Below are positions 6,004 through 19,680 of a DNA stretch of 64,000 nt, piece by piece. Position 1 is the first letter of the stretch. The number at the start of each line of letters is the position of its first letter. The notes under the pieces were generated by a model. It had not been told where the DNA came from. It did not search any database and worked only from the letters and a program-made list of their open reading frames with translations. The position numbers and the translations under genes were made by a program. The stretch spans positions 2,046,001 through 2,110,000 of the forward strand of contig NZ_AP027130.1 of the NCBI RefSeq assembly GCF_027925145.1, read 5' to 3'. Source of the stretch: Thermodesulfomicrobium sp. WS. Its GTDB lineage: Bacteria; Desulfobacterota; Desulfovibrionia; Desulfovibrionales; Desulfomicrobiaceae.

Positions 6004-6393
6004 ATGTCTCCCATTCGTGTACTCATCGTCGATGATGAAGACCGCTTCCGCCAGCTCATGGCCAAGCTCTTTACTGCCAAAGGTCTCGACGTGGTCACCG
6101 CCGCCAACGGCCCCGAGGCTCTCCTCCGTCTCGAAGACGCCGGCCCCTTCGACGTAGTGATCCTCGACATCAAGATGCCTGGCCCGAGCGGACTCGACAT
6201 CCTCCCCCACCTGCGCGCCTGCGCCCCGGCTACCCAGGTCATCATCCTCACCGGCCATGGCGATATCCAGGCTGCAAGCCGCTCTCTCCAGGACGGCGCT
6301 GCAGAATTCCTCCTCAAACCGTGCTCCTTCGAAGAACTCCTCAGCGCCGTCCATCAGGCAGTGGACCGCATGCGTACCACGACAACGCCCTAA
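6004..6393 (+). CDS. Stand-alone receiver-domain response regulator
   Basis: Protein of 129 residues made of a single CheY-like receiver domain: acidic pair DDED near residue 10, phospho-acceptor in VVILDIKMPGPSG near 54, the Thr of ILTGHG near 82 and the conserved Lys in LLKPCS near 104. It has no output domain, so it must act through protein contacts or as a phosphorelay intermediate. No kinase is adjacent; the nearest are at 15.9-19.5 kb. It converges with the following minus-strand gene, and the two stop codons overlap (6390-6393). An AAGG motif precedes the ATG. Confidence 0.88.
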   Translation: MSPIRVLIVDDEDRFRQLMAKLFTAKGLDVVTAANGPEALLRLEDAGPFDVVILDIKMPGPSGLDILPHLRACAPATQVIILTGHGDIQAASRSLQDGAAEFLLKPCSFEELLSAVHQAVDRMRTTTTP

Positions 6394-8984
6394 ACAGGAC
6401 ATTGAAAGTACGCATCGCCTCGCAGAAAACTTTCCACCATAGCGTCCACACATGCTTCATTGACCATGAGCATGTCTGCCTGCCGGGTAAATTGGAGCAA
6501 TCGTCCCACATGCACCAGTCGCTCGGCAATGACCTCGGCGCTGGCCTTATGGAAGCGGGCGAAACTTTGATCCGCCACGGTTTCCACCCGAAAATGGAGC
6601 CGAGCCAAAATGGCAGCAATGGCCCGGGCCCGACGGCTGCGTTTGGCGTCGTCAGCGGCCCCGCCCTTGAAGACAAACGAAATATAATTTTTATTCACCG
6701 TATTGCCGCAATAGCAGTCCAGCACCCCGTAGTGATAGCCCACGCGGGAGCTGAAATTGAGATATTTATCGGACACAATGGCATAGCTCTTTTCCCCAAA
6801 GCGATCTTCCCCCGGACGGGCGCCGCCCAGCGCCTGCTCACGCAGTACGGAAAGCAGCCCTCCAACATGCACCGGCCGCGGCTGGCGCAAGGCCGCTTCG
6901 CCGAGCACCAAACCTTGCAGCAACGCGGCAAAAGGCCGCGATACCACATCTTCAAGCCGCACCCATCCTTCCTGCCCCGCTTTTGAGACAAGGGCGCCAC
7001 CCAAATCAATAATGTGGAGATCAAGACCCGTGGGGGCATCGAGCCGTAGAGTGGCCCCCTGGTGATCAGCCACCAAATCGCTCAAGCGGAACATCTCCGC
7101 ATAGGAGCGCTCGTGGATATAGCGCATGATGTCATGGATGGTGTGACACCCCTGAGGAGCAAACTGGGGAGATTTGGGATCCACCAGCCGCAAAGGCACG
7201 ACGAGGTCGTACAGGGCTCGAGCCATGGCGTACGCGCTCCCTCGACGACGTGGGCTCGCCTCTGCAGCACGAACCCCAGCCACCAGCGCCTCCAGACGAC
7301 CTGCATAGACCCGCCGGGCGCGGGCATCCACCGTCACCTCCTCTCCGGGACGCACGGCCGCGAGGGCTCCTGGAACCCCCACCAGTGAAGGGACATGGAA
7401 TTCCCGGCACAACGACGCCATGTGGCCAGTGACACTGCCGAACTCGGTGACCACAGCCGCAGCTTTGGGCAAGGCAAAAAGATACGCTGGCGACGAATGG
7501 CTGGCCACCAGCACGGCGCCCTGGGGAAACACGTCGAGGTCGTGGGCATCGTGCACCACGAATACCGGACCAGCGCCGACGCCAGCATAGGCAGGCTCGC
7601 CGCCGCTCACAAGTACTGGAGCCTGCAGAACGAGATCCTCTTGCTGCGCTTGCGGGACGCATCCCAAAGGCCGGCTCTGGACAATAACGATATCGCCATT
7701 GTCACGCATCACCCACTCCACATCCTGCGGCCCACCTCCAAAACGCTCCAGCGCTTCGCCAAGGCGGCCCAAGGCAAGAACTGTAGCCGTATCCAGGCAA
7801 AGGCTCCGACGCTGGGTTTCCGGCAGCGGACAGTGCTTGACGCCGCCCGGGACGGGGACCACCGCAAGGGCCTTGTCGCCAGGCTGGACATCGGTCACGA
7901 CCACATCCGCATCGGTGCGCTCCAAAACCCAACGATCCGGCACCACCAAACCGTCCACCACAGCCACGCCCAACCCCCACGCGGCCTCCAGCAAAAGATG
8001 CGGACTTCGGCCCGAGCGGGGGTCGCGGGTAAACAGTACCCCGGCAGCTCGGGCGGGGATCATTTCCTGGACGAGCACGGCCATGGCCACCGAATCCATG
8101 CCCAAGGCCGCCCGATACACAATGGCTTCAGGGGTAAAGAGACTGGCGAGGACCTCCCGGTAGGCATCCTCCATGCCGTCCACACCCACTCCCAACACGG
8201 TGTGGTACTGACCGGCAAAGGAATAGTCGCCGTCCTCGTCCTCGGCGCTGGAACGCACCGCCACACGAAGATGCTCCAGCTCGATTCCACACTGACGCGC
8301 CAACGCCTCCATGGCCTGTACCATTTGTTCTCCAAGCTCGGGAGGGAAGGGGACGGTTTGGACCACCTGCTTGAGCGCCTCCGAGGCCTGCCGCACCGTT
8401 GTGGGAACATTGGGATCCACCGTCAAAAGCCAGTGCTGGATCTCAGGCCAACTTTCGCTTTGCTGGAGCACCGCGGCGCAGGCCGCAGCAGTCACCACAA
8501 ACCCCCGCGGCACAGGAAACCCCGCCCGGACCAAAGCCCCCATAGTTACGGCTTTACCGCCGACCAAGGAGGCCGGAGAGTCATGGATCTCCTCCACAGC
8601 GAGAATCCACGGCCCCGAAGGAGCTCCGGTCATTGTCTGGACCAGTGCGTCCATCCTCTCCTGAAGCGAGAGCAGACGACGGTGCAATTCCGGCTCGGGG
8701 CGACCCGCAAGGGTCTCGAAGCTCCGCAGCATGCGCAAGGCATGAAAGACTGTCCGGCTGGCCCAGGTGCGCGGCACCCCAGGGCCGAGAGGCCGCCCCT
8801 GTTCAAGAACATCTTCCATCTCGGCAATGATGCGCAACAGCTCGGTATTGCTCTCCAAAAGCTGCAAAAAGGCATGGTATTTCTCCTTGAAGGAGCCATC
8901 CACCTCTGCGGGCCGAGAAGAAGCACCGCGCCCCCTCGCCCATTGCCACAACGCGCGCAACCCATCCAAAACGCTGCCCGCCAT
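6390..8984 (-). CDS. PEP synthase-like protein lacking the catalytic C-terminal barrel
   Basis: Protein of 864 residues. Residues 1-120 are a helical extension. Residues about 130-470 match the ATP-grasp PEP/pyruvate-binding domain of PEP synthase and PPDK (LVGGKAVTMGALVRAGFPVP; then AVRSSAEDED). Residues about 480-570 are the swivelling phosphohistidine domain, with the active-site His in GSVTGHMASLC near 521. The usual C-terminal TIM barrel, where PEP is made, is not recognisable. It is replaced by about 270 residues of unknown type containing YGVLDCYCGNTVNKNYISF. A pyrophosphoryl- or phosphoryl-transfer role with another acceptor is inference. The start at 8984 has AGAGGAG upstream and lies 4 bases from the regulator stop, so the two genes are co-transcribed. 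Confidence 0.8.
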   Translation of the reverse strand: MAGSVLDGLRALWQWARGRGASSRPAEVDGSFKEKYHAFLQLLESNTELLRIIAEMEDVLEQGRPLGPGVPRTWASRTVFHALRMLRSFETLAGRPEPELHRRLLSLQERMDALVQTMTGAPSGPWILAVEEIHDSPASLVGGKAVTMGALVRAGFPVPRGFVVTAAACAAVLQQSESWPEIQHWLLTVDPNVPTTVRQASEALKQVVQTVPFPPELGEQMVQAMEALARQCGIELEHLRVAVRSSAEDEDGDYSFAGQYHTVLGVGVDGMEDAYREVLASLFTPEAIVYRAALGMDSVAMAVLVQEMIPARAAGVLFTRDPRSGRSPHLLLEAAWGLGVAVVDGLVVPDRWVLERTDADVVVTDVQPGDKALAVVPVPGGVKHCPLPETQRRSLCLDTATVLALGRLGEALERFGGGPQDVEWVMRDNGDIVIVQSRPLGCVPQAQQEDLVLQAPVLVSGGEPAYAGVGAGPVFVVHDAHDLDVFPQGAVLVASHSSPAYLFALPKAAAVVTEFGSVTGHMASLCREFHVPSLVGVPGALAAVRPGEEVTVDARARRVYAGRLEALVAGVRAAEASPRRRGSAYAMARALYDLVVPLRLVDPKSPQFAPQGCHTIHDIMRYIHERSYAEMFRLSDLVADHQGATLRLDAPTGLDLHIIDLGGALVSKAGQEGWVRLEDVVSRPFAALLQGLVLGEAALRQPRPVHVGGLLSVLREQALGGARPGEDRFGEKSYAIVSDKYLNFSSRVGYHYGVLDCYCGNTVNKNYISFVFKGGAADDAKRSRRARAIAAILARLHFRVETVADQSFARFHKASAEVIAERLVHVGRLLQFTRQADMLMVNEACVDAMVESFLRGDAYFQCPV

Positions 8985-8988
8985 ACCA

Positions 8989-11475
8989 TTATTCTCCTCT
9001 GTGTTGGGACTCGCGGTCTTCTGCGAGCACGTAGCGCGTTGATGGCCCTTTGCCTTCGAGTACGGCATATCCTTTCCGCACCAGCTCCTTGAGATCATAA
9101 AGGGCGGTGCGCGGTGCAATGCGTTCCTCAAACAAGGATTCATATTGCTGCCGGGTCATGGATCCATGGGCACGCAGATATTCCAATCCGCGTTGCTGAC
9201 GAGGGGTCAGGGATTCCCGGGGTCGGGCACCACCATCGGCAGGTGGGACAGATTGCTCGGAGGACTTGGCCACCAGCGGCAACGAAGCGCTGGCAGCTCC
9301 CTCGCCGTTACCCAATCCATTGCCCAGCAGAAGATCCTCGGCTTGAATCACCCCGGTCTCCACAAAGGCCGCCACGCGCAAAATACAATTTTTCAGTTCG
9401 CGGATATTCCCCGGCCAGTCGTAGGCCATCAGCTTCGCCACGGCGCCGCGGCTCAGAAGCACCGGTGATCGGCCAGAGGCCTCGCAGGCTGCCTGCAGGA
9501 AATGGGCAGCCAAAAGGGGAATATCCTCCTTGCGCTGCCGCAGAGGCGGCGTGGCAATGGTGAGTACCTGAAGGCGAAAGTAGAGGTCTTCTCGGAAAAG
9601 GCCTTGACGTACCATGTCCTCCAAATTGGCGTTGGTGGCAGCGATGACACGGGTATCGAAGGGGATCTCGCGGTCACTGCCCAGGGGCTGAAGCTTACGG
9701 GCGGAAAGGGCGCGCAAAAGCGCCTGCTGCACGCGCATGGAGGCATTGCCGAGCTCGTCCAACAGGAGGGTGCCCCCATTGGCCGCCAAAAACGCCCCTT
9801 GGCGCTCACCTTTGGCCTCGGAAAAGGCGCCTTTGACGTGGCCAAACAAGGCGTCCATGAGGAGGTTTTCATCCAACGCCCCACAATTGATGGTGATGTA
9901 CGGACCAAGGCTTCGGCGACTGCACTCATGAATGGCATGGGCTACCAACTCCTTGCCCGTACCGGTCTCGCCCACAATGAGCACGTCGGCGTCCGTAGCC
10001 GCGGCCTTGGCGATGACCCCGCGCAGTTGGTCCACTGCCGCGCTGATCCCCACCAGCCCCACACCCATACCATCGCCAGGCGGCAGTTCCAACGCCACAG
10101 GCTCCCGTGCCTGCAAACTTTCCATCATCTTGTCGCGGCGCACGATCTCAGCATCCTTGCAACGGAGGCTGTGGATGAGCGCTCCGATGGTCTGGCGCAA
10201 CAAAACGGTTTCCTGATCCATTTCCGGCTCCAGAGGCAACTCCTCATATTTCCCGGCCTGCAAGTCCCGCACATCTTCCACAAGACGCAAAAGAGGTCTG
10301 GTGATGACCGCGCCCACGGCCCAAAGCACCAAAGAGAGGACGCCAATGGTGAGCCCCCCTACTCCCAGCATCAGCCACAGCTGCTGTTCACCGGCGCGCG
10401 CCACGAGCAGACTGCGGTCCACATACACCAAGCCAGCCACGACCCGAGGCGGCTGCCCAGGATCTTCCGCAAAACGCACCGGCGCATACCCCACCACGAT
10501 AGCCCCTTCGGAGCTCCCTACCCGGCGTGACCATAACGAGCGTGCCACCCCATGCCGCCCCTCTTGAAGATCCGCCACCACCGCCCAATAACTCTCAAAC
10601 TCTGGCCCAGGACGAAAGGCCACCTCCAACGCCCCGCGCCCCTGAATCCCCTGAAACCCAAAACGCACATCATCCACATCCAGTGGAGCAAGGGGGGAGA
10701 CATCACCTCTCGCCTCCAGATACATCCAGCCTTGAAGATCCAAGAGCACGGAATAACGCAGCCCTGGGGTGCGCGTGAAACCAGCCAAGGGAGAATCCGC
10801 CCCATGGTATCGAGCAAGGAAATTACGTACTGCACGCAAACTTACGCCAACCACCAATACCGCGCCGTCGGGAAGCCCCATAGCCCACCGCACCACCTCC
10901 CAATGCACCGGCTGGTTATCAGCCCCCCGCAATTCAATGGGATAGACCGTATCGACAACCCCCAACCATTGTCGCCTCCCTGGGGCCAAGCCAGCGGTAT
11001 CCGCGGGTAACGGCGAATTGCGAATATGCGCGACCCAGCGCAAGGGGACCTCAAGAGGTTCTCCCTGGGAATCGGCCACCACCAAGGCGCTGGTCTGCGG
11101 AGGCCTGGCGGCCAGGGCCGCCTCCACCACCACGCCATTGCCAAGCACAATTCGCGCATCGCGCAAAAATTGCTGCAAAACCTGAGGTGAAGGCTCGGCC
11201 TCGGCAAAAGCGCGTTCCGCCAATCGAACCGAAGTGGCGAACACCCCGGCCACGGCGTCGGCTTGCGCCAAAGTGGACAGCAGCGTCACCCGCTCTACAG
11301 CCATTCCCACGAAATAGTGGGTCGAGCGCATGAGCAGGGCTCCGCTTATCACCAAAACACCCAATACTACCGGAAAAACCGCTGCAGCCAGTTTGCGACG
11401 CACACTCCAATGCGCAAACCGGCTGGGTCGCCGGGGACGACAGGCAACGATATTGGAAAGCGAAAAGAGACGCAT
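8989..11475 (-). CDS. Membrane-anchored sigma-54-type AAA+ regulator with periplasmic sensor
   Basis: Protein of 828 residues. Transmembrane segment near 27-47, periplasmic sensor (Cache-like by layout) to about 360, second membrane segment near 363-387, HAMP-like linker, then an enhancer-binding-protein AAA+ domain at about 500-730 with Walker A GETGTGKE and Walker B GGTLLLDELGNAS. The sigma-54 contact loop, normally GAFTGA, reads GAFSEA near 545-550. The C-terminus (about 765-820, starting TPRQQRGLEYL) looks like a winged helix, not the usual Fis-type helix-turn-helix. Start at 11475 chosen for GGAGGG upstream. It is divergent from the usp-tauE operon, its likely target, and is followed by the PEP-synthase-like gene. 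Confidence 0.85.
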   Translation of the reverse strand: MRLFSLSNIVACRPRRPSRFAHWSVRRKLAAAVFPVVLGVLVISGALLMRSTHYFVGMAVERVTLLSTLAQADAVAGVFATSVRLAERAFAEAEPSPQVLQQFLRDARIVLGNGVVVEAALAARPPQTSALVVADSQGEPLEVPLRWVAHIRNSPLPADTAGLAPGRRQWLGVVDTVYPIELRGADNQPVHWEVVRWAMGLPDGAVLVVGVSLRAVRNFLARYHGADSPLAGFTRTPGLRYSVLLDLQGWMYLEARGDVSPLAPLDVDDVRFGFQGIQGRGALEVAFRPGPEFESYWAVVADLQEGRHGVARSLWSRRVGSSEGAIVVGYAPVRFAEDPGQPPRVVAGLVYVDRSLLVARAGEQQLWLMLGVGGLTIGVLSLVLWAVGAVITRPLLRLVEDVRDLQAGKYEELPLEPEMDQETVLLRQTIGALIHSLRCKDAEIVRRDKMMESLQAREPVALELPPGDGMGVGLVGISAAVDQLRGVIAKAAATDADVLIVGETGTGKELVAHAIHECSRRSLGPYITINCGALDENLLMDALFGHVKGAFSEAKGERQGAFLAANGGTLLLDELGNASMRVQQALLRALSARKLQPLGSDREIPFDTRVIAATNANLEDMVRQGLFREDLYFRLQVLTIATPPLRQRKEDIPLLAAHFLQAACEASGRSPVLLSRGAVAKLMAYDWPGNIRELKNCILRVAAFVETGVIQAEDLLLGNGLGNGEGAASASLPLVAKSSEQSVPPADGGARPRESLTPRQQRGLEYLRAHGSMTRQQYESLFEERIAPRTALYDLKELVRKGYAVLEGKGPSTRYVLAEDRESQHRGE

Positions 11476-11571
11476 ACCACCCTCCGATGCGCAAACAATC
11501 GCGCAAAAATCCCGCCAAGGCAAGACCTGTCGCACAAAAAACAATCAACAAAAAAAGCGTGTTGTCAGCAA

Positions 11572-11587
11572 AGGCACGGAGCTTGAT
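11572..11587 (+). promoter_or_regulatory. Candidate sigma-54 promoter of the usp-tauE operon
   Basis: The sequence AGGCACGGAGCTTGAT fits the sigma-54 pattern TGGCACG-N4-TTGCA with two mismatches, including GA instead of GC at the -12 element. It lies about 50 bases upstream of the usp start codon and is divergent from the enhancer-binding-protein gene. Two direct GCGCAAA copies (11489-11495 and 11501-11507) lie upstream and could be activator half-sites. Motif reading only. Confidence 0.35.
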
Positions 11588-11634
11588 ACTTCGTGCACAA
11601 GCACAACCCCCAAACCTTCTTGAGGAGGAAACGT

Positions 11635-12081
11635 ATGGAATGGAAAAGGAAACCTATCAAAACCATCTTGGTCCCACTGGACCTCTCCAGCCAAGCTCCA
11701 TCGGTACTTGAAGAGGCCATCCACCAGGCAAAGGCCTCGGAAGCAGAGCTGGTCCTCTTGATGGTGGCGGAAGATTTCTCCGACATCGGCGATTATGCCC
11801 ACGCTGCCCAGGTGCAGACAAAGCTCCTTGAAGAGACGCAAGCCAAGGCGGAGGAGTACGCGCACCATGCCAAGGCTGCGGGACTCATTCCTCAGGTAGA
11901 GGTATGCCAAAGCCCATCCCCAGCGGACGCCATCCTGCGCGTGGCTGAAGAGCGTCATGCGGACTTCATCGTCATGGGGAGCCGATCCAAACGCGGTATC
12001 GACCGCTTCGTGTTGGGCAGCGTAGCAGGCAAAGTAGTTTCCCATGCCCCGTGTTCTGTATTGGTGGTTCGTAACCCCTAA
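11635..12081 (+). CDS. Universal stress protein, UspA family
   Basis: Cytosolic protein of 148 residues with the UspA fold: start strand KTILVPLDLSSQAPSVLEEA and the C-terminal nucleotide-loop motif GSRSKRGIDRFVLGSVAGKV followed by APCSVLVVRNP, matching G-2X-G-9X-G(S/T). The family binds ATP or acts as a stress-responsive dimer. A strong GAGGAGG precedes the ATG. It is the first gene of a plus-strand operon with a small membrane protein, TauE/SafE permease and lipoprotein, divergent from the sigma-54-type regulator. A second Usp with a similar transporter context lies at 30.9 kb. Confidence 0.93.
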   Translation: MEWKRKPIKTILVPLDLSSQAPSVLEEAIHQAKASEAELVLLMVAEDFSDIGDYAHAAQVQTKLLEETQAKAEEYAHHAKAAGLIPQVEVCQSPSPADAILRVAEERHADFIVMGSRSKRGIDRFVLGSVAGKVVSHAPCSVLVVRNP

Positions 12082-12090
12082 GGAGGAGAT

Positions 12091-12378
12091 ATGCGACGTT
12101 TCATTTCCCCTATTCTTGCCTTTCTGTTTCTTGTGCTTCCGCTTACCGCATTGGCTGCAGGAGGCGGAGGATCTTCCATCGTGATCGTTGCCGACACCCG
12201 CTGGACCAGCGGTATCTCCCATTGGTGGGCGACGCTCTACAACGAAAGTCACCTCTATTTCACTATCGTCACCGTCATCATAATTCCAGTAGTAGGCATT
12301 ATATTTGGCACCATTGCCGACTTTATCATGGCTCACATCGGCATTGATCTTACGAAGCGCGGTCACGGCGGCCACTAA
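12091..12378 (+). CDS. Small membrane protein of the usp-tauE operon
   Basis: Protein of 95 residues that I cannot assign. A signal-like hydrophobic stretch at about 5-23 ends ALAAG, followed by a short exported loop with HWWATLYNE and a second hydrophobic segment at about 57-78 (IVTVIIIPVVGIIFGTIADF), then a basic His-rich tail GHGGH. It probably spans the inner membrane once after signal cleavage, or twice if uncleaved. An AAGGAGG motif lies between the usp stop and its ATG. Its place between usp and the tauE-like gene suggests an accessory role for the permease; that is inference. Confidence 0.72.
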   Translation: MRRFISPILAFLFLVLPLTALAAGGGGSSIVIVADTRWTSGISHWWATLYNESHLYFTIVTVIIIPVVGIIFGTIADFIMAHIGIDLTKRGHGGH

Positions 12379-12395: not shown

Positions 12396-13454
12396 ATGGA
12401 TTGGCTTTACGTACACATGCCTATTGCCGGCGTGGATATTTTCTGGCCCGGACTCATCATCCTCGGTGTGGGAGTGGGGATTATCGGTGGGTTCTTTGGC
12501 ATGGGCGGCGCATGGATGGTGACCCCTGGACTCAATATCTTAGGTTTCCCCATGGCCTTTGCCATCGGCACCGACATCGCGCACATGGCCGGCAAATCGT
12601 TGGTGTCCACCATGCGACACGGCAAATTCGGTAACGTCGACTACAAGCTCGGCATTATCATGCTCGTGGGCACCGTAGGCGGATTCGAGGTAGGCGCCCA
12701 AATGATCATGTGGCTCGAGCGGTTAGGTTCGGTGGATAAAGTCGTCCGCTACATCTACTTGGTGCTTTTGGCGTTCATCGCCTGGCTCGTCTTTTACGAC
12801 GTCCACAAGAAGAAAAGGCGCGAAGAAGAAGCCCGGCGTTTAGGTCGCGATCCCGAAGAAGCCGTGGGCGTGGAATGGCATAAGACCCTGCATAAAATCA
12901 AAATTCCTCCCATGGTACACCTCAATGTCGCAGGCATCTATTGTTCTGCGTGGCTGCCTATCGCGGTCTCTTTCTTCACCGGGTGGTTGGCTGGCATCCT
13001 CGGCATCGGCGGTGGACTCATCCGCATGCCTTCGCTCATCTATCTTTTGGGATGTCCCACGCACGTAGCAGTAGGCACCGACCTCTTTGAAGTCATGATC
13101 TCCGGTCTCTATGGAGCGGCTTCCTATACCTACAAAGGACGAACTGAGCTTGTTGCCGCTATTATCATGCTCGTCGGCGCTTCCATGGGTGCCCAGGTTG
13201 GGGCAGTGGCAACCAAATACATCCATGGATACGGTATCCGATATGTATTCGGGTGGGCGGTCATCGGCTGCGCCGTATCCATTGTCATGAAACTCGTTGG
13301 CGCTGCAGTTCCATCTACCAAGGATGCCATGGACATCTCAGCCACCATCCTGGTCAATGGTCTGGTCGCTGCCATGTCGCTCTATATCTTCGTGCGCATG
13401 GTTCAGGGAGCTAAGGCGGAGATTGCTGCCAAAAAACGTGGTGTCGCGAGCTAA
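12396..13454 (+). CDS. TauE/SafE family anion permease
   Basis: Polytopic membrane protein of 352 residues with the duplicated TauE/SafE (formerly DUF81) architecture: GGFFGMGGAWMVTPGLNILG in the first half and GILGIGGGLIRMPSLIYLLG in the second, each a glycine-rich loop followed by helices. A hydrophilic loop at about 140-165 (KKKRREEEARR) is cytoplasmic. Members export or import sulfite, sulfoacetate and other organosulfur anions; the substrate here is unknown, but sulfite would suit a sulfate reducer. An AAAGGAGG motif precedes the ATG. Co-directional with usp upstream and a lipoprotein 16 bases downstream. Confidence 0.9.
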   Translation: MDWLYVHMPIAGVDIFWPGLIILGVGVGIIGGFFGMGGAWMVTPGLNILGFPMAFAIGTDIAHMAGKSLVSTMRHGKFGNVDYKLGIIMLVGTVGGFEVGAQMIMWLERLGSVDKVVRYIYLVLLAFIAWLVFYDVHKKKRREEEARRLGRDPEEAVGVEWHKTLHKIKIPPMVHLNVAGIYCSAWLPIAVSFFTGWLAGILGIGGGLIRMPSLIYLLGCPTHVAVGTDLFEVMISGLYGAASYTYKGRTELVAAIIMLVGASMGAQVGAVATKYIHGYGIRYVFGWAVIGCAVSIVMKLVGAAVPSTKDAMDISATILVNGLVAAMSLYIFVRMVQGAKAEIAAKKRGVAS

Positions 13455-13470: not shown

Positions 13471-14064
13471 ATGAAAATACTACATCGCACTGCATTCTTC
13501 GTCGTGGCGGCAAGCCTGTTTCTCGTGACCGGATGCCTGGAAGAAGGCAAGGTGGAACAAGGCCGCACCGTGGCCTATGACAAGGCCAAAGGCGAGGTCA
13601 CCATCATCCGGGACACCTCAGCGGTACAAGGCAAACCTGATTATACCCACCTGCCTCCAGTCACTTTCAAAATCCCCGCAGATCCCGCAGAAATGGGGCC
13701 AGAACCTCGCCCCGGCGGACGCATGAAGCTGGACATGGAAAAGAACGAAGTGGTGATCTTCGACGCTGCGATCCAAAACTTTGTCCACATCCCCTTCAAG
13801 CTGGTGGATAAGCAGACAGAAATCACCAAAGATCACCCCTTGGTGGCGGGCAAGAAGTTCCCTATAGTGGACGCCGCCAAACGGACCGTGACCATTTATT
13901 CCAGCCGGCAAAAGACCCTGGTGACCATCGAAGTGGCAGAGGCGGACATCCAACGCCCCCAGACCGTATGGCAGGCCGGTGACGAGATTCGGGTGTACTA
14001 CAAGCAGCCAGGTCAGGCTCTGCGACTCATGAATATCACCCAAACGGACATCTACAAAAAGTAA
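13471..14064 (+). CDS. Lipoprotein of the tauE operon
   Basis: Protein of 197 residues with a type II signal peptide and lipobox LVTGC, so it is lipidated at Cys 20 or 21. The mature domain is beta-rich, with repeated phrases of the type R.VAYDKAKGEVTIIRDTS, KNEVVIFDAA and KRTVTIYSSRQKTLVTIEVA, suggesting a small beta-barrel. It resembles, from memory, a Desulfovibrio lipoprotein family of unknown function (DUF4881); no search was done. GGAGG precedes the ATG at 13471. Co-transcription with the permease suggests an envelope partner or sensor for it. Confidence 0.8.
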   Translation: MKILHRTAFFVVAASLFLVTGCLEEGKVEQGRTVAYDKAKGEVTIIRDTSAVQGKPDYTHLPPVTFKIPADPAEMGPEPRPGGRMKLDMEKNEVVIFDAAIQNFVHIPFKLVDKQTEITKDHPLVAGKKFPIVDAAKRTVTIYSSRQKTLVTIEVAEADIQRPQTVWQAGDEIRVYYKQPGQALRLMNITQTDIYKK

Positions 14065-14116
14065 CGTCAACCCACGGCAGGGGGCATGCCCCCTGCCCTT
14101 GCCCACGGAGGCCATC

Positions 14117-14320
14117 ATGAGATCCTCTTCCCCTTGGTGGTTCGTCGTCACCCTGGATGCCCTGGTCTTGGGCTACCTCTGTATCGCCATGTACCAGGCA
14201 CACCGCACCCCGGACACTTTTACTCCCACCTTCATGAAGACCTTCTTTGGGCTCCTGCTGCCAACCCTCGTGGCGTTCTTTTTCCTCCGGCGCCGCCTTA
14301 TGCGGGAGAAGGCGGCATGA
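14117..14320 (+). CDS. Small two-helix membrane protein
   Basis: Protein of 67 residues with two predicted membrane helices (about 6-25, FVVTLDALVLGYLCIAM, and about 42-58, FFGLLLPTLVAFFFL) and a basic C-terminus RRRLMREKAA that should face the cytoplasm. Not recognised. GGAGG stands 7 bases before the ATG at 14117. The TGA overlaps the ATG of the next gene (ATGA), so translation of the two is coupled and the products may form one complex. Confidence 0.65.
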   Translation: MRSSSPWWFVVTLDALVLGYLCIAMYQAHRTPDTFTPTFMKTFFGLLLPTLVAFFFLRRRLMREKAA

Positions 14321-15075
14321 GTCCTCGCATCCAGCAACTCTTCACCCAGCGTCGCATCCTGGGAGGCATCGCCTCCCTCTTTTTGCTTCTGGCCCTTGGG
14401 GCGGTGGCGGATGGACTCCAGCACATGGCCAGGCAGGATGCTTCGCAACTCGTGATCATTGCAGGGGAAAGCGTCCCCATCTCCGGCTGGGTTCCAGCCA
14501 ACGCCACATCCCAGGCCAGCATCCATATCCAGCCGCCCCTCTCTTTTGCCTTGCGCGGCCAACAGACGGGATACTACCTCGGCGGCAACCAGTGGCTGGG
14601 GACCATTACCGCCCCAGAGACTACCCCCGAGGGAAATTTCACGGCGTCCGTCCTTTTCCCGGGCGCTCCCGCCCAAGAATTCCACATTCGCGTGGTCTCC
14701 TCCGCCGCGCATGCGCAGCGTCTTGCCCCAAGCGTCCTCATCCGCACCCTTGGCGTGCACCCCTACCTGATAGCCGCCATACTGGCCACGTGCGGGGGGG
14801 GCACGGCGATTGCCATCTACCGTCTCTCCTCGACCCTTGAGAAGCTGCTTGCGCTGCAAAACTTGGCGGAGACCACCATTGATCACCGGGGCCGGCTCAC
14901 TGTGCCTTGGGGAAGCCGCCACGGACTCACTCCAGAGACCCGCCTCGCCGTTGTCCTTCCAGGTGGAGAAGCAGTGGGGTATGCCCAGGTGGTGAATGTG
15001 TGGGAAGACCACGCCCGGGCATCCTGCCCAGGAGTGCGGGGGGTGGTGCTCGTCGCCCGCCCCGCGCCGCACTAA
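14317..15075 (+). CDS. Membrane protein with periplasmic beta domain and cytoplasmic barrel
   Basis: Protein of 252 residues, not recognised. An N-terminal membrane anchor (about 16-34) is followed by an exported beta-rich region (about 45-145, including SVPISGWVPANA and GYYLGGNQWLGTI), a second membrane helix (about 150-172) and a cytoplasmic C-terminal domain (about 185-250). The last part has the pattern GRLTVPWGSRHGLTPETRLAV and resembles small barrel domains that follow a V..G...G...G..L.V rule. Such a layout fits signal transmission across the membrane, but no function can be claimed. The ATG overlaps the stop of the preceding small membrane gene; the gene ends 19 bases from the convergent response-regulator gene. 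Confidence 0.65.
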   Translation: MSPRIQQLFTQRRILGGIASLFLLLALGAVADGLQHMARQDASQLVIIAGESVPISGWVPANATSQASIHIQPPLSFALRGQQTGYYLGGNQWLGTITAPETTPEGNFTASVLFPGAPAQEFHIRVVSSAAHAQRLAPSVLIRTLGVHPYLIAAILATCGGGTAIAIYRLSSTLEKLLALQNLAETTIDHRGRLTVPWGSRHGLTPETRLAVVLPGGEAVGYAQVVNVWEDHARASCPGVRGVVLVARPAPH

Positions 15076-15094: not shown

Positions 15095-15877
15095 TCATGC
15101 TCCCCGGCCCCAGCCCCATCGCACTGCCGCCGCGCGGAGTTGCTGAGGGCCGATAACCCCCGCCAAGCTCCCAGCCATCCCCACGGCTACTATCCCATGG
15201 AGAGCCACCTGGGCTGCGGTTTCCACCAGAGTACAATGCGCATCCACCCATGACGGCGCGCAGCAGACACTGGCCACAGGATCCCGCCACAAGGTCGGCC
15301 AAGGCCGGCTCGCCAAGGCCTTCACCCAAAGACCGGGGTCCCAAATGCCCTGAAGAGCGCTGTCTTCCATCAGCAAGACGACCGTATCTTCTGACCAGTG
15401 CTCTAAGGCCCCCAAGGTTTGTCCCACGCTCCAGGACGGCGCCGTCACCAAACATTGGTCCACTGGCACAAGGATGTCTCCAGCGTGGAGATTGCGACCG
15501 CGAGAGGTTTGCACGGCCTCTCGCAAACGGGTCACGAGGATCGCTGTGTCACAGGGTTTGTGGAGCACATCAAAGGCGCCCTGTTCCACCGCCCTGGCCG
15601 CATCGTCCAAGGTGGCGTGACCGGTGAGCAAGATGACCGGCGCCCGAGGGCACACCGCCCGAATGCGCGGCAAGGCATCCACCCCGGAGAGTCCCGGCAT
15701 CCGCACATCAAGGACGATAACATCCGGCTCGACCATCTGCAAAAACTCCAAAGCTTCCCCAGCGCTGGCAGCCGAAGAGGTCACAAACCCCTGGTGCTCC
15801 AAAACCTTGGCCAACACCTTGGTAAAGGCAGTCTCATCATCGACGAGCAATACATGACTGCGCTGGCGCTCCTCCAT
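15095..15877 (-). CDS. Response regulator with receiver and CBS-domain pair
   Basis: Protein of 260 residues. Residues 1-120 are a receiver: DDE near 14, phospho-acceptor in VIVLDVRMPGLSG near 57, Thr of LLTGHA, Lys of LHKPCD. Residues about 130-250 form two repeats resembling CBS domains (GDILVPVDQCLVTAPSWSV and VDAHCTLVETAAQVALHGI followed by AGVIGPQQL). CBS pairs bind adenylates or SAM, so the output could be ligand-gated binding rather than transcription. There is no DNA-binding domain. Last gene of a four-gene minus-strand operon; AAGGAGA precedes the ATG, 10 bases after the kinase stop. Confidence 0.82.
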   Translation of the reverse strand: MEERQRSHVLLVDDETAFTKVLAKVLEHQGFVTSSAASAGEALEFLQMVEPDVIVLDVRMPGLSGVDALPRIRAVCPRAPVILLTGHATLDDAARAVEQGAFDVLHKPCDTAILVTRLREAVQTSRGRNLHAGDILVPVDQCLVTAPSWSVGQTLGALEHWSEDTVVLLMEDSALQGIWDPGLWVKALASRPWPTLWRDPVASVCCAPSWVDAHCTLVETAAQVALHGIVAVGMAGSLAGVIGPQQLRAAAVRWGWGRGA

Positions 15878-15887
15878 GGCATTCTCC

Positions 15888-17423
15888 TTAGGAACGGATA
15901 AGGGGAAGACGAGGCAGCGTTACGGTAAAACGCGTGCCCCGGCCAAGCTCACTGGAAAAATCTATACGCCCGCCCATGGCCTGCACCAGGGCATGGCAAA
16001 TAGGCAGCCCCAGGCCTGTTCCCCGGTCCGGAGCCTTGGTGGTAAAAAACGGAGTAAAAATGGCTTCCTGGTGCTCAGGAGCAATGCCACACCCGTTGTC
16101 CTCCACCACGATGCACGTCTCCTCGCCGTGTTCGGCAACTTCCACCCGTACCGTCACCCGTGACTGGGGCCCTCGGCCTTCCACAGCATGAAGGGCGTTG
16201 ACGATAAGATTGGCAAGCACTTGCTGGAGTTTGGCGGGATCTAGGCGTACCATGACTGGCTCGGGTAGAGCGGATGTCTCCAATTGGGCACCCATACCCT
16301 CGGCCATGGAATGAAAGGTGGAAACCACTTCCGGCACAAAACGACACAAATCCACCACCCGGGACTCTGCGCCAGAAGAAAGGCGACCAAACCCCAAGAT
16401 GGCGTGGGTTATGCGACTGCAGCGTTGGATCTGTCCCTCAAGTTGGCTCATGCTTTCCAAAAGCTCCTCTCCTGGCCCTGAGGCATCGGGACAAACCGCG
16501 CGCAGTTGCTCCAAAAGCATGCGCATATAGGCATGCTCACTCTTCATGACCTGCAAAGGATTATTGATTTCATGGGCAAAACCGGCAGCCATGGTCCCCA
16601 ACTGGGCCAAAAGCTCAGCTCGAGAAAGGGCCTCGCGCAAACTCTCCTGCTCGGTGTGATACTGGGCCAAAAGCCGCGTCACCGCACTACTCGTGCGCAA
16701 GGCGACACCCACCACCAGCGCCCCGCCAGCCACCAAAACCGCTGCCAAAAAAAGCCCGAGCCACCGCTCCACAAAAAGGCCCCACTCTTGCGGCGCGGCC
16801 ACTTCCACCTGCCAGGGGAGCCCTGGGACTCCAACCCTGGCCATTTCCCATCCTTCTTGAGGGGCATCTCCCCGCTCCAGGCGCCCCCCTGAGACCTGGA
16901 GGACCACATGCTCGCGCTTTTGTCGGGCAAGATCGAGCCAACGAGCCAGAGCGTTTGCCTCGAGATAGACCCAATGAAGGCCGTCTCCGCGACGAGCCCC
17001 CACCACCACACCAGCAACGGGTTGGGTTTGCAGGGGAGCGGCCACCAGGGGCCCTTGGTGAACCAACACATCGCGAGCCGCGGCCAATGCCGCTTCCGGG
17101 GCCAATACCCCTCCCTGAAAATGCACCTCTCCAGCATCATCCACCCGACCTACGGCCAAGACCCCCCACGCACGCATGCTCTCCACAGGAACGACCTGAG
17201 CAACCTCCAAGGTCTGACGTACCCATTGCTCCACGACGCGAGCCACCGTGGTCGCCCGTTGGCGCACCACTTCCTGATGGGCATGGTGGACGACTCCTAC
17301 CCCCCACACCAGGGCGCAGCCCAACGCTAAAAGCACCGGCACTAAGGGCGGACCAACGATAACCGCAATCAAACGCCCTTGGACCCCGCGGGCCCAAGCA
17401 AAGAGTTCAGGCAACGGGCGCAT
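15888..17423 (-). CDS. Membrane sensor histidine kinase (second of the operon)
   Basis: Protein of 511 residues. Membrane helix at about 18-45, a short periplasmic sensor to about 210, second helix near 215-233, then HisKA with phospho-acceptor His in [13 protein letters not shown] near 284 and a HATPase domain with N-box VNALHAVEG, G1 VEDNGCGIAPEH, F-box IFTPFFTTKAPD and G2 GTGLGLPICHA. It should autophosphorylate and pass phosphate to one or both receivers of the operon. Its start overlaps the end of the upstream receiver gene by 17 bases, giving coupled translation. Confidence 0.92.
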   Translation of the reverse strand: MRPLPELFAWARGVQGRLIAVIVGPPLVPVLLALGCALVWGVGVVHHAHQEVVRQRATTVARVVEQWVRQTLEVAQVVPVESMRAWGVLAVGRVDDAGEVHFQGGVLAPEAALAAARDVLVHQGPLVAAPLQTQPVAGVVVGARRGDGLHWVYLEANALARWLDLARQKREHVVLQVSGGRLERGDAPQEGWEMARVGVPGLPWQVEVAAPQEWGLFVERWLGLFLAAVLVAGGALVVGVALRTSSAVTRLLAQYHTEQESLREALSRAELLAQLGTMAAGFAHEINNPLQVMKSEHAYMRMLLEQLRAVCPDASGPGEELLESMSQLEGQIQRCSRITHAILGFGRLSSGAESRVVDLCRFVPEVVSTFHSMAEGMGAQLETSALPEPVMVRLDPAKLQQVLANLIVNALHAVEGRGPQSRVTVRVEVAEHGEETCIVVEDNGCGIAPEHQEAIFTPFFTTKAPDRGTGLGLPICHALVQAMGGRIDFSSELGRGTRFTVTLPRLPLIRS

Positions 17424-17802
17424 ATTCTGCTGCTTGGATCACCGTATCCACGAGTCGAGCAAGCGGCACGGGCTTGAGAAGGTAGGCAAACGCCCCATAG
17501 GCCATGCCCCGCACCCCGAGTTCCTCGCCACCATGTCCTGAAAGCAGGACCACCTGCACCCGAGGATAGTTTTCTTTGATATACCGTAACGTCTCAAGGC
17601 CATCCATGCCTGGCATGAGGATATCGAGGACCACCACATGAACGGGCTGCCGCTCTAGGGTCTTGAGGGCCTCTGCACCGCTGAGTGCACCCTGGGTCGC
17701 AAAGCCGCGGCGAGCCAGGCGCTTCACAAGAGCGTCCACAAAATCCTGCTCATCGTCCACCACGAGCACGGAAATTTCATTTTTCACCGAGGTGACGGTC
17801 AT
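17407..17802 (-). CDS. Receiver-only response regulator
   Basis: Protein of 131 residues made of one receiver domain: DDEQ near 16, phospho-acceptor in VVVLDILMPGMDG near 58, Ser of LLSGHG and Lys of LLKPVP. No output domain. The start at 17802 (MTVTSVKNE) is chosen because it gives a normal receiver N-terminus; it overlaps the upstream kinase gene by 26 bases, and its own end overlaps the next kinase gene. Its place between two kinases suggests a phosphorelay intermediate or a kinase-control protein rather than a transcription factor. Confidence 0.9.
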   Translation of the reverse strand: MTVTSVKNEISVLVVDDEQDFVDALVKRLARRGFATQGALSGAEALKTLERQPVHVVVLDILMPGMDGLETLRYIKENYPRVQVVLLSGHGGEELGVRGMAYGAFAYLLKPVPLARLVDTVIQAAEYAPVA

Positions 17803-19459
17803 CGGCCTTACTCCCCCTGCGCACGGGCAGGCAAATGATGAATTCCGTTCCTTCACCCGGCTGGGAGACAAAGCGGATGGTGCCGCCCAACCGGGTGACA
17901 ATAGAATAACTGATGGAAAGCCCAAGGCCAGTCCCTTCGCCCACCTGCTTGGTAGTAAAGAAAGGATCGAAGACGCGCGCCTGGATTTCCTTATCCATAC
18001 CCGGCCCATCATCCCGAATGTGCATGCAGACACATCCGCTTTGGGCGTCATAGGCAGCGCCAAGGGTAATGGTCCCGTCCTTGCCAATGGCATCAATCGC
18101 ATTGTCCACAATATTCAGAATCACTTGTTGGAGCTGAGAAGGATCGGTCTCTACCAATGGAAGATCTTCTTCTATATCCCATTTTAACTGAATATTACGA
18201 AAATGCATCTCATTTTGCAAAAAGACAACCGTCTCTCGCAATAGATCTGGTATAGACACATCAAATCGTACCGGTTCCATGCGTCTTGCAAAGCCAAGCA
18301 TTCGGTGGACAACACTTCCTGCTCGCTCAACATGTTGTTCTATCTTGATGACTGCGTCTCGAAGTTCTTGAAAATTGGGACTTGACTGGATGTCCTCCTC
18401 TTCCAAAAGATCACGGATCCACCCTGCCTGCTCGCGGATCACCGCCAAGGGATTGTTGACTTCGTGGGCCACGCCAGCGGCAAGCTTTCCTAAGGCAGCC
18501 ATCTTGCTCGACTGCACCAGCTCCTCGTTGAGGCGCGCCTGCTCCCGCTCTTGGCGTTCCTGATGGACCACAATCATTCGACTTACCACCAAAATTCCAA
18601 GGAGGATGCACAGCAGTCCACCAGCGCTGACGAGAATAGTCATCGTACGAGTACGTAACAGTGGTTCCAGCTCGCTGTGCTTATCCTCTTCGATCACTAC
18701 AAGCCATTCTTTCTCCTGCAGCCATATACCAGCGATATAAACAGCATTATCATGCATTATTCCTTCATGAATTCGAACACCAGAAAACTTACTATCTATC
18801 AATGGACGAATAACCTGGACATCTTTTCCTGAAAATCTCGGATTTGTCTGAAGTTCACCTTTTTTATTAATAATATATGCATCTCCTTTTTTTCCTATCT
18901 GAATAAGACGAACAAAAGAATCAAATATTTCAGAGTTTATCGTTGCTCGCAAAATCCATTCTCGACCATTTTCTTGCTTAGAAACAGCAATAATAATATG
19001 TGGAAAACCACGAAATCCTGTAAATACATCACTAATATATAGCTTGCGAACACGGACTATTTTAAACCATTCTTCATTTTTATAATTTATGGAACGAAGA
19101 TTATAAGGCCCGCTGTACACCACGTGGTTCCCTTCGTCATCAATGAGTCCCAAATCGACTATAGTTTGAGATCCTTGCTGCATGATGGAAAGCAGCCGAT
19201 CCATGAACTCCTGAGAAGAAAGCTGGGCCAGGCTATGGCTTTGCGCAGCAACACGCAACTGGGCCACCTGATCGCGCAAAAACAAATCGATGGCATTGCG
19301 CTTATCCTCGGCAAAAATGGCGAGATTGTCACGCACCTTTGCGTGATAGGCAGACGCAAACATCCCATAAACCACCCACCCCAAAAGAAACAAGGGGACA
19401 AAAGAAAAAAGCAATACAGTGCCAACAATGGATTTTCGGAGCGAAGGGCTCGGGAGCAT
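17777..19459 (-). CDS. Membrane sensor histidine kinase with Cache-type sensor
   Basis: Protein of 560 residues. Membrane helix at about 12-34, a long periplasmic part (about 35-285) with the layout of a double Cache domain (DLGLIDDEGNHVVYSGPYN; later GDAYIINKKGELQTNP), second helix near 300-322, HisKA with His in GVAHEVNNPLAV near 330 and HATPase motifs IVDNAIDAI, IRDDGPGMDKE, FDPFFTTKQ and GTGLGLSISYS. Cache sensors bind small carboxylates, amino acids or similar ligands. The start at 19459 has AGGAGGAGA upstream. First gene of the kinase-receiver-kinase-receiver operon. The sensor-coding stretch is more AT-rich than its neighbours. Confidence 0.92.
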   Translation of the reverse strand: MLPSPSLRKSIVGTVLLFSFVPLFLLGWVVYGMFASAYHAKVRDNLAIFAEDKRNAIDLFLRDQVAQLRVAAQSHSLAQLSSQEFMDRLLSIMQQGSQTIVDLGLIDDEGNHVVYSGPYNLRSINYKNEEWFKIVRVRKLYISDVFTGFRGFPHIIIAVSKQENGREWILRATINSEIFDSFVRLIQIGKKGDAYIINKKGELQTNPRFSGKDVQVIRPLIDSKFSGVRIHEGIMHDNAVYIAGIWLQEKEWLVVIEEDKHSELEPLLRTRTMTILVSAGGLLCILLGILVVSRMIVVHQERQEREQARLNEELVQSSKMAALGKLAAGVAHEVNNPLAVIREQAGWIRDLLEEEDIQSSPNFQELRDAVIKIEQHVERAGSVVHRMLGFARRMEPVRFDVSIPDLLRETVVFLQNEMHFRNIQLKWDIEEDLPLVETDPSQLQQVILNIVDNAIDAIGKDGTITLGAAYDAQSGCVCMHIRDDGPGMDKEIQARVFDPFFTTKQVGEGTGLGLSISYSIVTRLGGTIRFVSQPGEGTEFIICLPVRRGSKADDRHLGEK

Positions 19460-19638
19460 CTGGTCTCTCCTCCTTGGAATACGCGTCGGGATGTCGCAAA
19501 AATTGCACAGGATATGCCACAGCCACATGAAGGCCCCAAGAAAACTCCAAAAGCAAAGGGGCACGGAATCGTTGCCTCCCGTGGGAAAGACACCCGGCGC
19601 ATACTGCGTTGCCCAGGGGGCCGAGGGGTCTCGGCGAT

Positions 19639-19680
19639 AGCACAAAGCCAATGGCTGTAAACAGCACAAAGCCAATGGCT
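19639..19680. repeat. Tandem direct repeat with palindromic core
   Basis: An 18-base unit (AGCACAAAGCCAATGGCT) occurs twice, at 19639-19656 and 19663-19680, offset by 24 bases. Each copy ends in palindromic arms AGCCA/TGGCT around one central A. The pair lies between the divergent histidine-kinase operon and the thiamine transport operon and abuts a TTGACC hexamer, so it could be a two-site operator. No regulator is identified. Confidence 0.6.

Follow-up and report, generated by a model that had tools for sequence, protein, structure and literature searches.

A probable transmembrane one-component sigma-54 activator with an acidic L1 loop and a winged-helix C-terminus in Thermodesulfomicrobium sp. 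WS

The analysis of a 64,000-nucleotide window of Thermodesulfomicrobium sp. WS (the whole stretch of DNA analysed) revealed a one-component transmembrane regulator that probably activates a TSUP-transporter operon through sigma-54, as judged from sequence comparison and structure prediction. The gene for this sigma-54-type activator with a membrane anchor was located at 8989-11475 on the minus strand, with an ATG start at 11475 and a TGA end at 8989; these coordinates had been given in a preliminary description of the DNA and proved correct. The protein has 828 amino acids and was compared among 54 family members. Its domain order, topology, winged helix and acidic loop, as well as the promoters of its relatives and the conservation of its neighbourhood, were observed at the sequence level.

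The family set comprised the window protein, 30 loci and 24 more that were detected when 395 genomes of the phylum were scanned with the sensor profile. L187, a fragment lacking the AAA+ domain, was left out, which gave 54 members. In an AAA+ tree of 155 sequences, calculated with a quick method, with the loop columns kept and with members gathered by sensor domain or full length, all 54 members were found on one side of a branch with an SH-aLRT support of 100. By this comparison the regulator belongs to one clade within the phylum, and its clade membership is reported here for the first time. A second branch within the family held 10 members with GAFTDG or GAYTDG loops, the GAFTDG loci being L138, L139, L140, L142, L143, L144, L146, L136 and L036.

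The membrane topology of the regulator was derived from Kyte-Doolittle hydropathy, which placed transmembrane helix 1 at residues 25-49 (11329-11403, minus strand) and transmembrane helix 2 at residues 366-399 (10279-10380, minus strand). All 30 relatives scanned have a segment of the helix 1 type close to their N-terminus, and the arrangement of two helices was kept in nearly all of them, helix 2 of L152 falling below the hydropathy cut-off. The part enclosed by the helices, residues 48-366 (10378-11334, minus strand; ∼320 residues), is a predicted Cache-like periplasmic sensor: at E<=1 the dCache_1 profile matched this part in 23 of the 30 members, with 4.2e-9 as the best value, the window copy giving no match. 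A HAMP-like linker follows at approximately residues 388-440 (10156-10314, minus strand; limits approximate), for which PF00672 matched 7 of the 30 members, the window copy not among them. Hydropathy agrees with the membrane anchor named in the preliminary description, and the profile matches of the relatives suggest the periplasmic sensor. The sensor and winged-helix profiles gave no usable match against PDB sequences, and a full-length structure model, calculated from a two-sequence alignment, was discarded at a pLDDT of 38.

The AAA+ sigma-54 interaction domain was located at residues 475-640 (9556-10053, minus strand; PF00158, E 3.5e-59, 199.7 bits against a cut-off of 20.2), followed by the AAA+ lid at residues 646-715. 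The Walker A (GETGTGKE), Walker B, arginine-finger and sensor positions were all conserved in the regulator, the catalytic residues were invariant in the family and the reading frames were intact. The GAFSEA loop named in the preliminary description is indeed present in this otherwise intact domain, as the L1 loop at residues 549-554 (9814-9831, minus strand). Wherever the loop could be read in the family (54 members), its fifth position was acidic, as glutamate in 43 and as aspartate in 11, and the loop types were GAFTEA (21), GAFSEA (19), GAFTDG (9), GAHSEA (2), GAFSDA (1), WAYTEA (1) and GAYTDG (1). Because the acidic residue is kept in 54/54, GAFSEA is not a chance variant, and this family-wide acidic position, as read from the alignment, is new here.

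The loop position was also compared in 101 other activators. This set combined the top AAA+ matches in diverse bacteria, a few relatives included, with the activators of the own genome. The aligned residue was glycine in 78 and aspartate in 16, and glutamate in none. A further 16 AAA+ positions differed consistently between the family and the other activators. The L1/L2 Glu/Arg pair, which we take to be E97 and R131 of PspF, was considered as a replacement confined to the family and was dropped, as the glutamate was missing in 27 and the arginine was replaced by proline in 28 of the 101 other activators. The 2.36-Mb genome encodes 18 proteins with strong PF00158 matches, and position 5 is acidic only in this regulator; the other loops were GAFTGA, GSFTGA, GAFTHA, GAYSGA, GAFSGA and GVATGV, that of L008 being read as GAFTGA. 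In L018 (C1:1632834-1633313), which is activator-like, the L1 loop was not recognisable (GKTAPAPQPGRF), and this protein possibly does not contact sigma-54. L010 (C1:2189284-2189778) carries GVATGV instead of GAFTGA; the same odd loop is described in PMC4641369 for DVUA0100, which is linked there to type III secretion genes.

The L1 loop contacts region I of sigma-54 and the DNA at -11/-12, according to a review (PMC7175178). For NorR, PMC2941729 reports that the G266E variant is non-functional, that G266D and G266N are constitutively active and that exchanges to Q, S, C or M leave partial activity. As the NorR glutamate variant is inactive, it would be wrong to regard GAFSEA as harmless. Either the other AAA+ changes of the family compensate for the acidic loop, or the contact with sigma-54 differs. 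The point of interest is therefore whether the acidic loop works, given the NorR result on the one side and the conserved promoters on the other.

The C-terminal domain, approximately residues 755-820 (9016-9213, minus strand), was assigned as a winged helix from profiles, predicted structure and structure matches. The C-terminal 78 residues yielded a confident fold (pLDDT 87, from a two-sequence alignment), and among the Foldseek matches listed for this model most were winged-helix DNA-binding proteins, five of them at E<=0.001; the model fitted 3lmm_D (DIP2311) at 1.0 Å over 59 columns. At E<=1 the DIP2311-like_C profile matched 20 and HTH_DeoR 16 of 30 members, and by profile alone the C-terminus of the window copy showed a weak LexA_DNA_bind match (E 0.026). 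The Fis profile of Pfam, HTH_8, matched none of the 30 family members and all 10 of the other own-genome activators tested (10 of 17 taken). The winged-helix end suggested earlier was hence confirmed. Orthologues with GAFTGA and a Fis-type domain, which had been named as the case that would speak against a distinct class, were not found: exact GAFTGA occurred in 0/54 and a Fis match in 0/30 members.

Divergent to the regulator, on the plus strand, lies an operon that begins with a universal stress protein gene (11635-12081; PF00582), for which the ATG start was taken, with a ribosome-binding site read ahead of it, and a longer frame with a GTG start opens at 11593. The gap ahead of the transporter gene holds a gene for a small exported or membrane protein of 95 amino acids of the DVU0150 family (12091-12378; NF040783, 118.6 bits against a cut-off of 70), and no RNA family was found between the divergent genes and the transporter. 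Proteins of the DVU0150 family were present in 77 of the 395 genomes of the phylum, some of them with no match to the regulator's sensor. The TSUP/TauE transporter gene (12396-13454; PF01925) is followed by a lipoprotein-like DUF4881 gene (13471-14064; PF16222, E 1.7e-73) and, as the last gene of the operon, by one for a membrane protein with no family assigned (14086-15075). On the other side, 4 bases 3' of the regulator stop, lies a gene for a protein with PPDK_N and PEP-utilizers domains (6390-8984, minus strand), which is probably in the operon of the regulator and adjoins it downstream in 28 of 55 loci; the protein showed no match to a PEP/pyruvate-binding barrel, and its C-terminal 300 residues have no assignment. 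A stand-alone response-regulator receiver domain is encoded at 6004-6393 on the plus strand (PF00072). A cluster beside the transporter operon, at 15095-19675 on the minus strand, encodes two sensor kinases, of which one has a dCache_1 match, and two response regulators. Kinases similar to those of this cluster adjoin the regulator in many relatives.

Conservation of the neighbourhood was counted in the window and 54 loci (n=55). In 42 of these a TSUP transporter gene lies on the divergent side of the regulator. The GAFTDG/GAYTDG branch accounted for 10 loci, in 9 of which the divergent gene encodes a CBS-domain protein; as far as the contigs extend, the next gene encodes a large membrane protein that resembles anion transporters. 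The contig of L155 is too short for the divergent gene to be judged. Contig ends truncate L173 and L185, and L176 lacks a TSUP neighbour, with a DUF4881-like gene alone in that place.

The preliminary description had proposed that homologues with the loop variant be examined for conservation together with sigma-54 promoters, and this check was run with a hand-entered -24/-12 scoring matrix, with equal-length segments of the same loci as controls and with L173, L176 and L185 outside the TSUP scan (contig end or no TSUP neighbour). For the best site between the regulator and the TSUP gene of the divergent operon, 32 of the 42 loci gave a score of at least 13, compared with 34 of the 1314 control segments (2.6%), and 21 gave at least 15, compared with 4 control segments; the loci are related and the counts therefore not independent. 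The promoter fell below 13 in the remaining 10 of the 42 loci. The rpoN gene is present in the genome (PF04552, E 1.2e-62).

In the window, a degenerate -24/-12 element, AGGCACGGAGCTTGAT, was located at 11572-11587 on the plus strand within a block common to the congener: both share GGCAC..AGCTTGAT inside diverged flanks, with the -24 element nearly intact and GC changed to GA at -12. The candidate scored 10.0 in the window, a score reached by 27 of 200 shuffles, and 10.3 in the congener. A TTGTCA-N17-GATACT arrangement, read by eye at ∼11556-11584, overlaps the element and is absent in the congener. The -12 C was also replaced by A in L181 and L183 and by G in L169 and L170, at sites about where relatives of their own families carry a canonical site. 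Of the 10 members of the second branch, 8 have T and 1 has A in its place, and with the -12 C scored as neutral 8 of 10 reached 13, against 4 of 410 control segments. The promoters of the CBS genes in this branch read TGGCAC-N5-TTGT/TTGA-like. The change, which recurs at one base, may be tolerated by this activator class. A simple rule linking loop type and -12 base was rejected, since GAFSEA members carry C, A or G; given that the loop contacts the -11/-12 DNA (PMC7175178), a link between the two is worth testing. In the own genome the -24/-12 pattern was counted 28+35 times and its reversed form 29+27 times; this is no enrichment, and the pattern was therefore not used to define a regulon.

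A direct repeat, GCGCAAA-N5-GCGCAAA, was identified at 11489-11507 on the plus strand as a putative upstream activating site. It lies directly upstream of the ribosome-binding site of the regulator and is the sole exact copy in the genome. Of 40 loci, 30 carried GCGCAA in the 140 bases upstream of the promoter, where GC-matched stretches would lead one to expect 9.8, and the other 10 lacked it; L171 and L187 were excluded from the 42 loci because no promoter could be placed. The position of the repeat would suit activation and self-control alike, and we infer that the winged helix would be the binder of the GCGCAA repeats.

In the mechanism that we propose, the Cache-like periplasmic domain would sense some molecule outside the cytoplasm, and the signal would travel through transmembrane helix 2 and the HAMP-like linker before it reaches the AAA+ ring. 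Held by its winged helix at the GCGCAA repeats between the divergent genes, the regulator would draw this DNA to the membrane. At the -24/-12 promoter, ATP hydrolysis would then drive the GAF(S/T)(E/D)(A/G) loop onto sigma-54. The operon opened would be that of the universal stress protein, the DVU0150-family protein, the TSUP transporter, the DUF4881 protein and the membrane protein. Sensing, signal passage, sigma-54 contact by the acidic loop and activity in the species of the window are the steps that we infer.

The preliminary description had left open whether the regulator forms a distinct class of one-component transmembrane activator or has lost contact with sigma-54. The first is upheld by the conserved topology, the single clade of 54 members and the winged helix. 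The second is unlikely for the family as a whole, because -24/-12 promoters are conserved, rpoN is present and no ATPase motif is impaired. In the species of the window it may apply, since the promoter there has GA in place of GC at -12. One could suppose that in this genus the regulator left sigma-54 and, bound to the intergenic region, governs the operon through a promoter of the sigma-70 type, like TyrR-like proteins, which the -12 base of window and congener, the overlapping sigma-70-like hexamers and the loss of NorR activity with a loop glutamate (PMC2941729) would favour. We consider this quite unlikely, as the GGCAC-containing block is kept with the congener amid diverged flanks and the hexamers are not, relatives with canonical promoters carry the same loop, and the -12 base is replaced too in L169, L170, L181, L183 and the second branch; moreover, PMC3162934 describes loop substitutions or deletions in the sigma-70-dependent TyrR, DhaR and HupR.

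It is very unlikely that the regulator mainly represses or regulates itself while another sigma-54 activator of the genome drives the divergent operon. The repeat at 11489-11507 does lie directly upstream of the regulator start, and 17 other proteins with strong PF00158 matches are encoded in the genome, but autoregulation is compatible with activation, and the divergent position, found in 42 of the 55 loci and in a wide range of families, points to the regulator as the activator of the operon. A decayed activator, in which the drift of the loop marks a loss of function, would explain the deviant loop and the low promoter score of the window; against the acidic position in 54/54, the 16 family-specific AAA+ positions, the intact frames and the invariant catalytic residues, it is extremely improbable.

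A close parallel has been described by Kazakov et al. (2015; PMC4641369) in Desulfovibrio vulgaris Hildenborough. According to that paper, DVU0151 is a single-component regulator with GAFSEA whose predicted target is the divergent operon DVU0150-DVU0146 (transmembrane transport) with a sigma-54 promoter; it has no annotated Fis domain, its orthologues (DvMF_2340, Dde_0697 and Dbac_2039) show winged-helix similarity, its long conserved N-terminus may contain a novel sensing domain, and the GAFSEA variation would maintain activity, for which a review is cited. The window's divergent operon contains a DVU0150-family gene and is therefore of the same locus type; this gene and the independent prediction for DVU0151 both speak for the proposed reading. 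By description and locus type, the window regulator is essentially the counterpart of DVU0151, sharing GAFSEA, the lack of a Fis domain, the winged-helix end and a divergent sigma-54 transporter operon with a DVU0150-type gene. Unlike the DVU0151 operon, which starts with DVU0150, that of the window has a universal stress protein gene in front and a degenerate promoter. The passages of PMC4641369 covered mention no transmembrane topology, Cache/HAMP arrangement or family-wide acidic loop for DVU0151, and in the portions of open-licence full texts covered we found no study on the regulator's membrane topology or activity and no experiment on DVU0151.

Other known systems share parts of this architecture. 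Enhancer-binding proteins of the NorR/NtrC/PspF type have an AAA+ domain with intact ATPase motifs as in the regulator, but combine GAFTGA with cytoplasmic regulation and a Fis-type end where the regulator has GAFSEA and a winged helix. Winged helices of the DeoR/DIP2311 type resemble its C-terminal domain, although there no sigma-54 AAA+ motor is attached. One-component transmembrane regulators like ToxR and CadC also unite sensor, membrane anchor and DNA-binding domain in one protein; they have no AAA+ motor.

GAFTGA is taken as needed by sigma-54 activators, yet this family has fixed acidity at the loop position, usually as glutamate, and keeps sigma-54 promoters at its targets. Glutamate, which destroyed NorR (PMC2941729) but prevails here, offers a natural test of the loop requirements. 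The class occurs in sulfate reducers and their relatives, for many of whose activators no signal is known, and in it sigma-54 would receive a periplasmic signal with no kinase or response regulator in between. A more far-reaching reading, which we consider rather unlikely, is a phylum-wide class of transmembrane activators with a re-tuned contact, in which the fixed acidic L1 residue would act in concert with other family-specific AAA+ positions and a -12 element lacking the usual C would be tolerated. If this is true, the loop and the -12 base would have co-evolved as a pair into a second way of remodelling sigma-54, controlled directly by a periplasmic sensor.
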